Assembly (NCBI GenBank): GCA_943788235.1
Contig: CALSPM010000005.1
Coordinates: 310,001 to 374,000 of the forward strand
Reading direction: 5' to 3'
DNA from: an uncultured Cyclobacteriaceae bacterium
Lineage (GTDB): Bacteria > Bacteroidota > Bacteroidia > Cytophagales > Cyclobacteriaceae
DNA length: 64,000 bases
Under the pieces are notes generated by a model, which was not told the DNA's origin, ran no database searches, and saw only the letters and a program-made list of their open reading frames with translations. This document shows positions 6,525 to 10,786 of the stretch, piece after piece. Every line of letters begins with the position of its first letter. Positions within the stretch are counted from its first letter, which is position 1. Both the position numbers and the translations under genes were made by a program.

Positions 6525-7480
6525 AAGTAGATTGTTTGATTATTGGAGCGGGCCCGATTGGCCTTGCTTGTGCCATAGCCGCTAAAAAGGCAGGGTTGAG
6601 TAATTTGATTGTAGATCGGGGGACTTTGGTTAATTCAATCTATCATTATCCGGCAAACATGACTTTCTTCTCTACTTCAGATAGATTAGAAATAGGGGAA
6701 GTCCCCTTTATTTCAAATAGTCCCAAACCTACGAGATCTGAAGCCTTAGAATACTATAGAAGGGTAACACTTGCTTGGGATTTAAAGGTCAATTTGTATG
6801 AAGAAATCGTCAGTGTCGTTAAGAAAGATCAACTTTTTGACATAAAAACGACAAAAACTACGCATCAAGCGGCCTCAATTATTGTGGCAACAGGCTTTTA
6901 TGATTTGCCATTTTTGTTAAATCTCACTGGAGAATCCCTTTCTAAAGTAAAGCATTATTATCACGAGGCACATCCCTATTTTGGAATGAATGTAGCGGTT
7001 ATCGGATCCGCTAATTCGGCAGTGGATGCTGCCTTAGATACCTACAGAAAAGGGGCAAAAAAGGTAACGATGATTGTTCGAGAAGCTGAAATTGGGTCCA
7101 ATGTGAAGTATTGGGCTCGGCCAGATATTATAAATAGAATTGAGGAAGGAGCCATAAAAGCCTATTTTGAGTCAACGATTACCGAGATTCGACAGGATGA
7201 GATTGACGTTAAGACATCCGAGGGTGAGATAACTCTTGTCAATGATTTTGTTCTTGCCATGACAGGCTATCAGCCAGATTTTAATTTTTTAACTTCTATG
7301 GGGGTAAAGATAGGAACAGATGTCAATCGAACGCCTTTTCATAATTCTGAAACTATGGAAACCAATGTCTCAGGTATTTTTCTTGCTGGGGTTATTTGTG
7401 GAGGCCTAAAAACAAATAAATGGTTTATTGAGAATTCTCGTGAGCATGCTGAATTAATTATTAAAAAATTAATTTCTTGA
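6521..7480 (+). CDS. ypdA: YpdA family (putative bacillithiol disulfide reductase)
   Basis: FAD motif CLIIGAGPIGLACAIAAKKAGL and second Rossmann VAVIGSANSAVDAALDTYRKGAKKVTMIVR; TTG start overlapping the previous stop (TTGA). Confidence 0.88.
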   Translation: MKVDCLIIGAGPIGLACAIAAKKAGLSNLIVDRGTLVNSIYHYPANMTFFSTSDRLEIGEVPFISNSPKPTRSEALEYYRRVTLAWDLKVNLYEEIVSVVKKDQLFDIKTTKTTHQAASIIVATGFYDLPFLLNLTGESLSKVKHYYHEAHPYFGMNVAVIGSANSAVDAALDTYRKGAKKVTMIVREAEIGSNVKYWARPDIINRIEEGAIKAYFESTITEIRQDEIDVKTSEGEITLVNDFVLAMTGYQPDFNFLTSMGVKIGTDVNRTPFHNSETMETNVSGIFLAGVICGGLKTNKWFIENSREHAELIIKKLIS

Positions 7481-7562
7481 TTGCCTAAATCCCAGAAGGC
7501 ATCCTTAAAGGAGTTTTTTTTGGAAGAGGTTGATAAATCGTATTAAGTAACTGAAATTATTA

Positions 7563-7712
7563 TTTTCGGAGTTCATATCAAGAAATAAGTATTTGATTAC
7601 AGTGGATTTGAGAGATAAATATTGAGGTCCCATCTTAGCACTATGGTTTTGGAGATGGTTCTCCAGTGGTTGGTTCTTATAAAGGCATTCTGTGGTGGGA
7701 TGCCTTTTTTTG
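7563..7712 (+). ncRNA. Candidate structured small RNA, copy 1 of a tandem direct repeat
   Basis: ~150 bp, about 87% identical by manual alignment to 7805-7954; hairpins ATCAA(7577-7581)/TTGAT(7593-7597), CCAT/ATGG, GGAGA(7651-7655)/TCTCC(7660-7664); terminator stem AAAGGCAT(7681-7688)/ATGCCTTT(7700-7707) plus T-run. Confidence 0.45.
7681..7711 (+). terminator. Intrinsic terminator-like hairpin ending repeat copy 1
   Basis: AAAGGCAT tctgtggtggg ATGCCTTT followed by Ts. Confidence 0.6.
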
Positions 7713-7804
7713 CCTGACATTCAACAGGCGCCCTAGCTATAAAAGGCAGTAGTCTTCCCGGGGCACTGAGGTATTTTGAGGGGTCTTATTTCCTTATCAC
7801 AGTT

Positions 7805-7954
7805 TTTTCGGAGTCCATATCAAGAAATAAGTATTTGATTACGGTAGATTTGAAAGATAAATATTGAAAGGCCATCTTGATAGTATGGTTTTGGAGATCC
7901 TTCTCCTATGGTTGGTTGTTTTAAAGGCATTCTGTGGTGGATTGCCTTTTTTTG
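7805..7954 (+). ncRNA. Candidate structured small RNA, copy 2 of a tandem direct repeat
   Basis: Same order of hairpins; GGAGA(7893-7897)-TCCT-TCTCC(7902-7906); terminator AAAGGCA(7923-7929)/TGCCTTT(7943-7949) plus T-run. Confidence 0.45.
7923..7953 (+). terminator. Intrinsic terminator-like hairpin ending repeat copy 2
   Basis: AAAGGCA ttctgtggtggat TGCCTTT followed by Ts. Confidence 0.6.
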
Positions 7955-8016
7955 AAATCAGCCAAAAGAATTAATTGGGTTTAAAAAAAGAGGGAAGAAA
8001 AAAACGGTAAAGGAAA

Positions 8017-8130
8017 ATGATAAAAATCCAACTTCTTATGATACTTATCGTAATTTCAACCTACGCATTATTGCTATTGATTGTGAGTAATATGATTTCA
8101 TCAAACAAAATGAATCCTACCCATGTATAA
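8017..8130 (+). CDS. Possible 37-aa single-TM microprotein
   Basis: ATG...TAA encoding MIKIQLLMILIVISTYALLLLIVSNMISSNKMNPTHV; preceded by aaaggaaa; below the ORF-track cutoff. Confidence 0.3.
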   Translation: MIKIQLLMILIVISTYALLLLIVSNMISSNKMNPTHV

Positions 8131-8398
8131 AAAGCATAATTTTTTTTTGGATGAAATAGATTTTTATATGAATCCAACTCTTTGAGTGAACGATGACAGC
8201 TAAAGACGTGTTTGTTCCTTAGTTATTAATAAGATTAAAAATTATGAGATTTTCATGTTGGTATTTTGGCTAATGTTTAAATTCCTCTTTTTAAATTAAC
8301 TGAGCAAAAGTTTAGTCATGGTAATTTTAAATATTAATATTGCCCGATAAACACAAACAAGCCAGAAATCATAAATACAGTTACTTTTTTTACTATCA

Positions 8399-10786
8399 AT
8401 GAGGCTACTTTTTTTAATAATATTCTTCAATGTCAGTTGGTTGTCTGCGCAGCAAATGGTCACATTAAATGGTGAAATTAGCGATGCGGCCAATGGGGAA
8501 TCTCTTGTTGGGGCAGTAGTATACATCAAACAAGTGGAAGGTGGAGCAGTTACCAATGTGTATGGTTTCTATTCTTTGAGTGTTACTCCAGGCACTTATG
8601 ACGTTGAATTCAGATATGTTGGTTTTAATACGCAGAATATGGTTTTGACGCTGACAGAGAATATGCGTCTTGATATTGAACTTGTTGAGATTGAAAAGGA
8701 GTTGAATTCGGTGGTGGTGTCCGCAAATCGTGAAGATGCCAATATCAGCGATGTAGAGATGAGTACAGCTAAGCTAGATATCAAATCAATATTGAAAGTA
8801 CCCACTTTTGCTGGAGAAGTAGATATCATTAAAAGTATTCAGTTGTTACCTGGGGTAAGTACAGTGGGTGAAGGAGCCTCTGGTTTTAATGTGCGAGGCG
8901 GTGGTGCCGGCCAAAATTTAGTGCTTTTGGATGAAGCTCCCGTATATCAAACCTCACATTTATTTGGTTTTTTTTCCGTGTTTAATCCGGATGCAGTTAA
9001 AGACGTTACATTATATAAAGGGGGTATTCCTCCTCGTTATGGAGGAAGGTTGGCATCGATTCTGGATATAAGGATGAAGGAGGGGAATAATAAAGGTTAT
9101 GAATTTAATGGAGGTGTTGGAACTGTTTTTAGTAGATTCTCGGTTGAAGGCCCGATTAAAAAGGAAAAAGTATCCTTTATTCTGGCAGGCCGAAGGTCTT
9201 ACGTGGACGTGTTAGCAAAACCCTTTACAGACGTATTTGACAATGGAGCGGCGTTGTATTTTTATGACCTAACAGCAAAGGCAAATTGGGACATAGATGA
9301 CAGAAATAGGGTCTATTTATCTGGGTATTTTGGTCGAGATGTATTCAAGTTCGATGAACGACAAGGCTTTGATTGGGGTAATCAAACAGGAACGATTAGA
9401 TGGAATCACCTTTTTAGCGATAAATTATTTTCCAATTTTACTGGCGTATTTTCTGATTATGATTACGGATTTAGTTTTGGTGACGATGCTTCAGATACAT
9501 TCGATTGGTCATCAAATATTAAGACCTATGATTTTAAACCTGAATTTAATTATTTCCTTAATGCCCAAAATGAGATTGTTTTTGGAGCAGAATTTTTGTT
9601 CTATGAATTTGAACCGGCCAATGCGATTGGAGTTAGTGATGGGTTTATTTCAGATATCAGTTTAGACAAAAAGAAATCTCTTGAGACATCGTTTTATTTT
9701 GGGAATAATCAAAAAATCAATGACCGTTTAAGTACCCAATATGGTCTTAGAATATCTTCTTTTCGCTATTTAGGTGGAGGTAATTCTTATTCTTATGGTA
9801 CAGCGATTCCCGGAGAAAGAAAACCATGGATTGGAACACAGTCACACGATAACATGGAAACCATAGCTCATTATGAGGTTTTAGAGCCTCGAGCTTCTCT
9901 CCGTTATACCTTGAATCCTACGAGTTCGATTAAGGGGAGCTACAACCGAATGAATCAATTCATTCATTTGATTTCCAATACAGTAGCGGCAACACCTATT
10001 GACGTTTGGCAGCCAAGCACCAATAATATCAAACCTCAGACGGGAAATCAGATCGCTATTGGATATTTTAAGAATTTGCAGGGGAACTTGTTTGAAACTT
10101 CTGCAGAGGTTTATTATAAATGGAATAAAAATCAGGTTGACTATATTGATGGTGCCGATATCTTGATCAATGAGTTTTTGGAAGGGGACCTGCTTTCAGG
10201 CGATGGTCGGGCTTATGGATTGGAACTGTATTTGAGAAAAACACGTGGGCGCTTCAATGGTTGGGTCAGTTATACTTTAGGAAAATCGGAGTTGAAGATC
10301 GATGGCGTTAATTATGGTACAGATATGGCTGAAAGAAAAGGGCAATGGTATCCCAATAGATTTGACCAAAGGCATAATCTAAAAATCACAAATAATTATC
10401 AAATAAATGACAGAATAACCCTTTCGGGTGTCTTTAGCTATCTCTCAGGAACGCCAACTACCTTTCCCAACGATCGCTTTTCACAACAAGGTTATGTCAT
10501 TCCATTGTTAAAAAATGAGCGCGGGAATGTTCGAATACCTGATTATCATAGATTGGATGTTTCGGTTACTTGGGACAATGTATATTTTGGCAAGAAAGGC
10601 AGAAAGAATACTGATTATTTCGTGTTTTCAGTTTATAATGTTTACAACAGAAGAAATCCATTTGCCATCATGTTTTCTCAAGGTTCAGATAGGCAGCCTA
10701 TTGACGAGCCCGTAGAGACCATAGCTTCTCAAATTTCTATCATTGGTTCTTTTGTGCCTGCTTTTTCTTACAACTTTAAATTTTAG
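8399..10786 (+). CDS. TonB-dependent receptor with N-terminal carboxypeptidase-like regulatory domain
   Basis: Signal peptide, VTLNGEISDAANGESLVGAVVYIKQVEGGAVTNVYGFYSLSV, plug LLPGVSTVGEGASGFNVRGGGAGQNLVLLDEAPVY, terminal aromatic SYNFKF. Confidence 0.93.
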   Translation: MRLLFLIIFFNVSWLSAQQMVTLNGEISDAANGESLVGAVVYIKQVEGGAVTNVYGFYSLSVTPGTYDVEFRYVGFNTQNMVLTLTENMRLDIELVEIEKELNSVVVSANREDANISDVEMSTAKLDIKSILKVPTFAGEVDIIKSIQLLPGVSTVGEGASGFNVRGGGAGQNLVLLDEAPVYQTSHLFGFFSVFNPDAVKDVTLYKGGIPPRYGGRLASILDIRMKEGNNKGYEFNGGVGTVFSRFSVEGPIKKEKVSFILAGRRSYVDVLAKPFTDVFDNGAALYFYDLTAKANWDIDDRNRVYLSGYFGRDVFKFDERQGFDWGNQTGTIRWNHLFSDKLFSNFTGVFSDYDYGFSFGDDASDTFDWSSNIKTYDFKPEFNYFLNAQNEIVFGAEFLFYEFEPANAIGVSDGFISDISLDKKKSLETSFYFGNNQKINDRLSTQYGLRISSFRYLGGGNSYSYGTAIPGERKPWIGTQSHDNMETIAHYEVLEPRASLRYTLNPTSSIKGSYNRMNQFIHLISNTVAATPIDVWQPSTNNIKPQTGNQIAIGYFKNLQGNLFETSAEVYYKWNKNQVDYIDGADILINEFLEGDLLSGDGRAYGLELYLRKTRGRFNGWVSYTLGKSELKIDGVNYGTDMAERKGQWYPNRFDQRHNLKITNNYQINDRITLSGVFSYLSGTPTTFPNDRFSQQGYVIPLLKNERGNVRIPDYHRLDVSVTWDNVYFGKKGRKNTDYFVFSVYNVYNRRNPFAIMFSQGSDRQPIDEPVETIASQISIIGSFVPAFSYNFKF

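Follow-up and report, generated by a model that had tools for sequence, protein, structure and literature searches.

A genus-restricted family of tandem repeats in marine Cyclobacteriaceae that probably encode sibling small RNAs

Two direct copies of a 150-nt repeat lie between a ypdA-like gene and a TonB-dependent receptor gene in a 64,000-nucleotide stretch of DNA from an uncultured Cyclobacteriaceae bacterium, the whole of which is referred to below as the window. They are probably tandem sibling sRNAs that act in trans and form a new family, each repeat unit being a complete sRNA gene. Each unit would consist of a conserved promoter/operator block of ~50 bp followed by a non-coding RNA of ~96 nt, with the predicted order variable 5′ leader, weak hairpin 1, hairpin 2, unpaired G/U-rich UGGUUGGUUGUU linker and terminator with a UGUGGUG loop. 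The two copies would be sibling sRNAs, probably co-regulated, which most likely pair in trans with mRNAs through the linker and/or the loop, repressing translation.

Results

A tandem repeat between ypdA and a TonB receptor gene

The copies form an ungapped direct repeat with 87% identity and a period of 242 nt. As BLAST aligns copy 1 with copy 2 at E=1.8e-46, chance is excluded as the origin of the repeat. A first-pass annotation of this DNA had described such a pair (150 nt each, without indels, differing at about 20 positions and spaced by 242 nt) and its setting, and domain matches agree with the latter. Upstream, a ypdA-like Pyr_redox_3 oxidoreductase gene ends at 7480, and copy 1 begins 83 nt past its stop; downstream, a TonB-dependent receptor gene (CarbopepD_reg_2/Plug) of a TonB-receptor/DUF4249 operon starts at 8399. 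The features considered in this work are the following, all on the + strand.

7563-7712: repeat unit copy 1, a promoter-like block plus predicted sRNA gene 1; direct repeat; match to model R2 of 114.5 bits at 7611-7715
7577-7610: upstream block of copy 1, ATCAAGAAATAAGTATTTGATTACAGTGGATTTG, which may be a promoter/operator; it contains a -7-like TGGATTTG at 7603-7610
7616-7711: predicted sRNA 1, about 96 nt; start placed from the -7 box, end from the terminator
7630-7646 (copy 1) and 7872-7888 (copy 2): hairpin 1, CCAT-9-ATGG; 83% of cells paired
7651-7664 (copy 1) and 7893-7906 (copy 2): hairpin 2, GGAGA-UGGU-UCUCC; 94.5% of cells paired
7665-7680 (copy 1) and 7907-7922 (copy 2): unpaired linker AGTGGTTGGTTCTTAT, whose conserved UGGUUGGUUGUU may serve as a seed or binding site; from the alignments
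7681-7711 (copy 1) and 7923-7953 (copy 2): intrinsic terminator with conserved loop TGTGGTG, from terminator scan, folds and alignment
7713-7804: 92-bp spacer between the copies, holding the upstream region of copy 2; resembles the one separating copies 1 and 2 of congener G007
7805-7954: repeat unit copy 2, a promoter-like block plus predicted sRNA gene 2; direct repeat; match to model R2 of 115.1 bits at 7853-7957
7819-7852: upstream block of copy 2, same block as in copy 1, with -7 box TAGATTTG at 7845-7852, a full TAnnTTTG match
7858-7953: predicted sRNA 2, about 96 nt; start placed from the -7 box, end from the terminator

Directly past the array, a small ORF (8017-8130, + strand) would encode 37 aa, MIKIQLLMILIVISTYALLLLIVSNMISSNKMNPTHV, with one membrane span predicted by eye. 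The corresponding position is also open in G003, G005, G007 and G008 (33-37 aa) and missing in G004; its synonymous and non-synonymous counts (18/71) are not decisive.

The family is restricted to one genus

BLAST searches of 98 relatives returned matches in congeners only. These are marine Cyclobacteriaceae, and the matched contigs come from uncultured Cyclobacteriaceae and Flammeovirgaceae MAGs, one of which is UBA4465. The site formed by ypdA, the array and the TonB receptor gene (the main locus) is common to G003, G005, G007 and G008 and decayed in G004, and holds one to three copies, some of them decayed. In G007 it comprises two full copies, a secreted-protein gene on the opposite strand and a third copy, which the contig end truncates; in G005, a full copy, the same secreted-protein gene, a truncated copy and a 3′-half copy. 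G003 carries one full and one 3′-half copy, G008 two truncated copies, and G004 a single decayed copy lacking a working terminator. In G006 one copy lies at another locus (C35), and a third locus (C88), adjoining an FG-GAP-type gene and a hemB-like gene (names assigned by eye), holds an array of three. The ends of the C35 contig are exact inverted copies over at least 4.3 kb (L029/L030), probably an assembly artefact, and copies within this duplicate were counted once.

Members recognised by model R2 occur in eight of the ten congeners, several of them weak or decayed; the RNA was not found in G001 and G009. As it is absent from these two genomes, and as copies have decayed or lost their terminator arms in G005, G008 and G004, the RNA is not indispensable. 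A weaker, further relative is present in the host at C2:235679 (30.1 bits, E=0.04), with a different terminator stem and the same loop, and G002 shares its counterpart (33.9 bits).

Outside the genus, models R1 (146 genomes) and R2 (296 genomes) gave only matches near chance. Over the 296 family genomes R2 had one out-of-genus match at E<=0.001, which overlaps the end of a coding sequence. The two best out-of-genus hits were rejected as members. That in G286 (40.7 bits) is the terminator of an RND pump gene and overlaps coding sequence. That in G016, from another genus (L045; G016:C41, minus strand, about 1501-1610), consists of two tandem terminator hairpins past the end of an OmpA-like gene; their loop, CTGTGGTGG, is the same as in our repeat, an agreement not above the chance level for the genomes covered. 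Terminators with a TCTGTGGTGG loop gave one clear case outside the genus in 296 genomes, by our estimate about the chance level, and the exact DNA pattern, searched in 84,980 species, had a terminator context in the same congeners only. Neither phages, plasmids nor viral contigs matched the repeat. Rfam gave no match in the window at the gathering score and none that was plausible at E<=10 within 7400-8420. The family is thus genus-restricted and not in Rfam. The proposal of an uncatalogued structured-RNA family, made from the two copies, is supported by the presence of homologues, intact or decayed, in the majority of congeners, by the compensatory changes described below and by the lack of an Rfam match.

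The 5′ third of the repeat looks like promoter/operator DNA

Counts of variable sites over the six intact main-locus copies delimit two conserved islands per copy. On the upstream side, the 24-nt core at 7577-7600 is invariant in all six (0/24), and five of 15 sites vary in 7601-7615. Within the predicted RNA, 10 of 14 sites vary in 7616-7629 and 7 of 17 in hairpin 1, as compared with 3/18 in hairpin 2, 5/16 in the linker and 3/27 in the terminator.

The upstream island (GAAATAAGTATTTGATTACAG-GNATTTG) recurs ~200 nt 5′ of a secreted-protein gene which precedes an STN/TonB-type receptor gene and a DUF4249-like gene, protein kinship at this operon having been judged by eye. It does so at four places, all lacking the RNA body: two in the host, one in G003 and one in G001. 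The host recurrences are nearly identical copies on C6 and C9 (L032:3866-3937 and L033:4290-4360); the others are L034 (G003:C9) and L170 (G001:C60), and together they may represent a shared operator. Because the invariant DNA also lies upstream of an unrelated operon, the 5′ ~50 nt of the repeat (7563-7610) look like promoter/operator DNA, and we treat them as a candidate for this role. Two elements of the first-pass annotation are revised by this result. It had taken the whole ~150 nt as transcript, whereas the 5′ ~50 nt behave as promoter/operator, with their invariant core and recurrence at an unrelated operon; and it had proposed an ATCAA/TTGAT RNA stem, which is disrupted (GTGAA) where the block recurs beside the secreted-protein and TonB/DUF4249 genes. 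With the start position that we infer, the transcripts would be ~96 nt long.

The block ends in TnnATTTG-like boxes. The Bacteroidota -7 consensus, TAnnTTTG (PMC7366714), is matched in full by copy 2 and by copy 1 of G005; most box matches are no better than those in shuffles, and the copy 1 box is not significant alone. G006_1, which lacks the first island, carries a TTCATTTG box at the corresponding place. Matches to the first half of the repeat at L003, L004, L022 and L170 were rejected as further sRNAs because neither RNA body nor terminator follows downstream.

Conserved linker, terminators and helices in the predicted RNAs

Nearly invariant within the predicted RNA are the UGGUUGGUUGUU linker and the terminator loop UGUGGUG, the latter kept also at the further host locus despite its different terminator stem. 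A survey of terminator loops in half of the host genome indicated that the UGUGGUG-type loop is not a common one; the survey registers it under ‘TGG’, since G-U pairing can zip the loop. That each copy has a terminator of its own is supported. A simple terminator scan flags copy 1 only, and the copy 2 terminator, a 7-bp stem with an internal mismatch, folds as a 3′ hairpin before the T-run. All four stems originally proposed are free of mismatches in both copies. The accompanying statement that loops vary while stems stay constant holds for hairpins 1 and 2 but not for the terminator, whose loop is kept where the stem differs.

Folded singly, the two 150-mers gave weak energy z-scores (-1.32 for copy 1, -0.45 for copy 2), so that homologues were needed to show structure. 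When predicted transcripts were folded, shuffles were as stable in 0 of 200 cases for G006_2 and in 4 of 200 both for window copy 2 and for G006_1. Eleven intact copies were then realigned to model R2. Three helices are kept in them, with 93.7% of cells forming standard pairs; as a control, the structure was slid by one to three columns, which left 42-54% of cells paired. Changes on both sides of a pair occur in eight cells, against a shuffled mean of 2.1, and none of 500 shuffles reached that value. The number of pairs with such changes (three) was reached by 91/500 shuffles and is not exceptional.

The strongest single example is the last (fifth) pair of hairpin 2: seven copies have A-U here, two have C-G and one has U-A. 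In addition, two distant copies have U-A in place of C-G at the outer pair of hairpin 1, and three copies have C-G in place of U-A at one terminator pair. Hairpin 1 is weak, its innermost pair being unpaired in 5 of the 11 copies and the whole hairpin missing in the third paralogue. Since the alignment was fitted to the structure, covariation is support and not proof; what these eleven copies show is conservation of the helices with modest compensatory change.

Evolution of the array

The two copies would have arisen by tandem duplication, with later homogenisation and loss through direct-repeat recombination. Host copy 2 shares its upstream junction with G007 copy 2 and its downstream tail (GAAATCAGCC) with G007 copy 3, and the secreted-protein gene of the G005 and G007 arrays is missing from the host array. 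Recombination between direct repeats may have deleted this gene, giving rise to the host arrangement. The protein itself (229-237 aa, no Pfam match) is encoded on the opposite strand between copies in G005 and G007 (L027:3813-4502 and L024:2761-3474).

Discussion

Known systems of the same kind

The best reading of the comparisons is that the family resembles FopS and NgncR_162/163 in kind and belongs to neither. FopS, a family of paralogous sRNAs, and GibS are sRNAs of Bacteroides thetaiotaomicron (PMC11697453); like them, the units described here are multicopy paralogous intergenic genes of a Bacteroidota genome, predicted to yield sRNAs of less than 100 nt that end in an intrinsic terminator. 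Promoters of the TAnnTTTG type would be shared with FopS, the boxes here being only suggestive, and TonB/SusC-type outer-membrane genes, regulated targets in FopS, are neighbours here. The differences lie in the RNA. FopS has a 5′ single-stranded R1 seed, the terminator hairpin directly after it and a length of 65-70 nt; here it is the 5′ leader that varies, two further hairpins (1 and 2) stand before the terminator, the predicted length is ~96 nt, and the conserved elements are the linker and the terminator loop, not a 5′ R1 seed. Copies are clustered at one site, whereas those of FopS are dispersed. The FopS consensus was deposited in Rfam according to its authors (PMC11697453); our repeat had no match in release 15. 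The FopS partner RbpB, an RRM-1 protein, has no counterpart in the host: no RRM_1 domain (PF00076) was found in the 98.5% complete genome, the Bacteroides control being positive.

Neisseria NgncR_162/163 (PMC9973317) are likewise two adjacent, similar sRNA genes (78% identity there, 87% here) with three stem-loops and an unpaired connecting region. They differ in phylum and sequence, and the Neisseria siblings have validated mRNA targets. Two traits of trans-acting sibling sRNAs are present in our family: two or more highly similar sRNA genes per genome with terminators of their own, and a conserved RNA secondary structure with modest covariation.

Trans-acting RNAs and the alternatives

By likeness to FopS (PMC11697453) and NgncR_162/163 (PMC9973317), trans base-pairing is the most likely use of the RNAs, which we infer to be transcribed, with the UGGUUGGUUGUU linker and UGUGGUG loop as candidate sites of contact. 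When targets of linker, loop, 5′ leader and hairpin 2 were predicted among 1133 start regions from about half of the genome, the top energies did not go beyond those of shuffled queries, a failure which says little because short-seed prediction is weak. Complementarity to the neighbouring small ORF and the TonB leader did not exceed that of shuffles.

The main rival, which we regard as unlikely, is that the RNA sequesters a protein by a CsrB-like or 6S-like logic, UGGUUGGUUGUU and UGUGGUG being the binding sites and copy number setting the dose. Conservation strongest in the unpaired linker and loop, a loop kept although the stem differs, variable copy number and the empty target prediction would all suit it. 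Against it, there is no candidate protein, the RRM-1 family (RbpB) being absent from the host genome, and a published precedent for the motif was not found.

It is likewise improbable that the repeat is a terminator module only, an insulator after ypdA or an attenuator before the TonB operon that was duplicated by chance and has no trans function. The position of copy 1 so close behind the ypdA stop, a terminator among the least variable parts, and copies that vary and decay are what this would predict. A terminator does not need hairpin 2 and the linker, which are conserved, hairpin 2 also covarying, and termination does not need a conserved loop. Moreover, copies occupy unrelated loci in G006, and every first copy at the main locus retains the conserved upstream block.

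The repeat could also be a type I toxin-like gene, each copy encoding a hydrophobic peptide of 24-30 aa (MVLEMVLQWLVLIKAFCGGMPFFA in copy 1). The Ldr/Ibs type I toxin loci of E. coli likewise combine a short hydrophobic ORF with direct repeats in tandem, and an ORF (MVLE..KAFCGG) overlaps each main copy, its frame being open throughout the six intact copies of the main locus. This ORF has no coding signature: pairwise comparison gave 48 non-synonymous codon differences and 6 synonymous ones, and the variable sites are distributed 4/2/2 over the codon positions. Its frame is broken or absent in G006, G003_2 and G005_3 (absent in the 3′-half copies), and a 1-nt insertion alters the C-terminus in G007_2 and G005_1, whereas the RNA features persist. 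The ORF was rejected as a coding gene and, with no antisense RNA identified either, we consider the toxin reading very unlikely.

Least probable, and hardly to be entertained, is that the repeat is mobile or recombinational in nature (a MITE, a transposon end or an att-like site): several copies per genome, an inserted gene flanked by copies in G005 and G007 and an assembly break at a copy in G007 fit it, but terminal inverted repeats, a transposase and a target-site duplication were looked for and not found, phages, plasmids and viral contigs held no match, and the copies are few and mostly at one syntenic site.

Returning to trans-acting sibling sRNAs, a more far-reaching and unlikely extension is that Bacteroidota without RbpB possess a separate multicopy sRNA regulon, marked by the UGUGGUG terminator loop and the UGGUUGGUUGU linker and bound by an RNA-binding protein of its own; the common upstream block would place these sRNAs under the regulator that also acts on a TonB/DUF4249 uptake operon.

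Significance

Tandem sibling sRNAs are an already known kind of system; the family and its corrected boundaries are new, and the discovery is real yet of a fairly ordinary kind. The Bacteroidota sRNAs studied experimentally come mainly from Bacteroides, and very few have been described in environmental Cytophagales. A defined family with mapped copies and a structure supported by modest covariation gives studies of sRNAs in marine Bacteroidota lacking RbpB a concrete place to begin, and the variation from one to three copies per site, with decay in some relatives, forms a natural copy-number series. Should the upstream block prove to be a shared operator, the sRNAs would be linked to the control of outer-membrane uptake genes, as FopS is through a different RNA.
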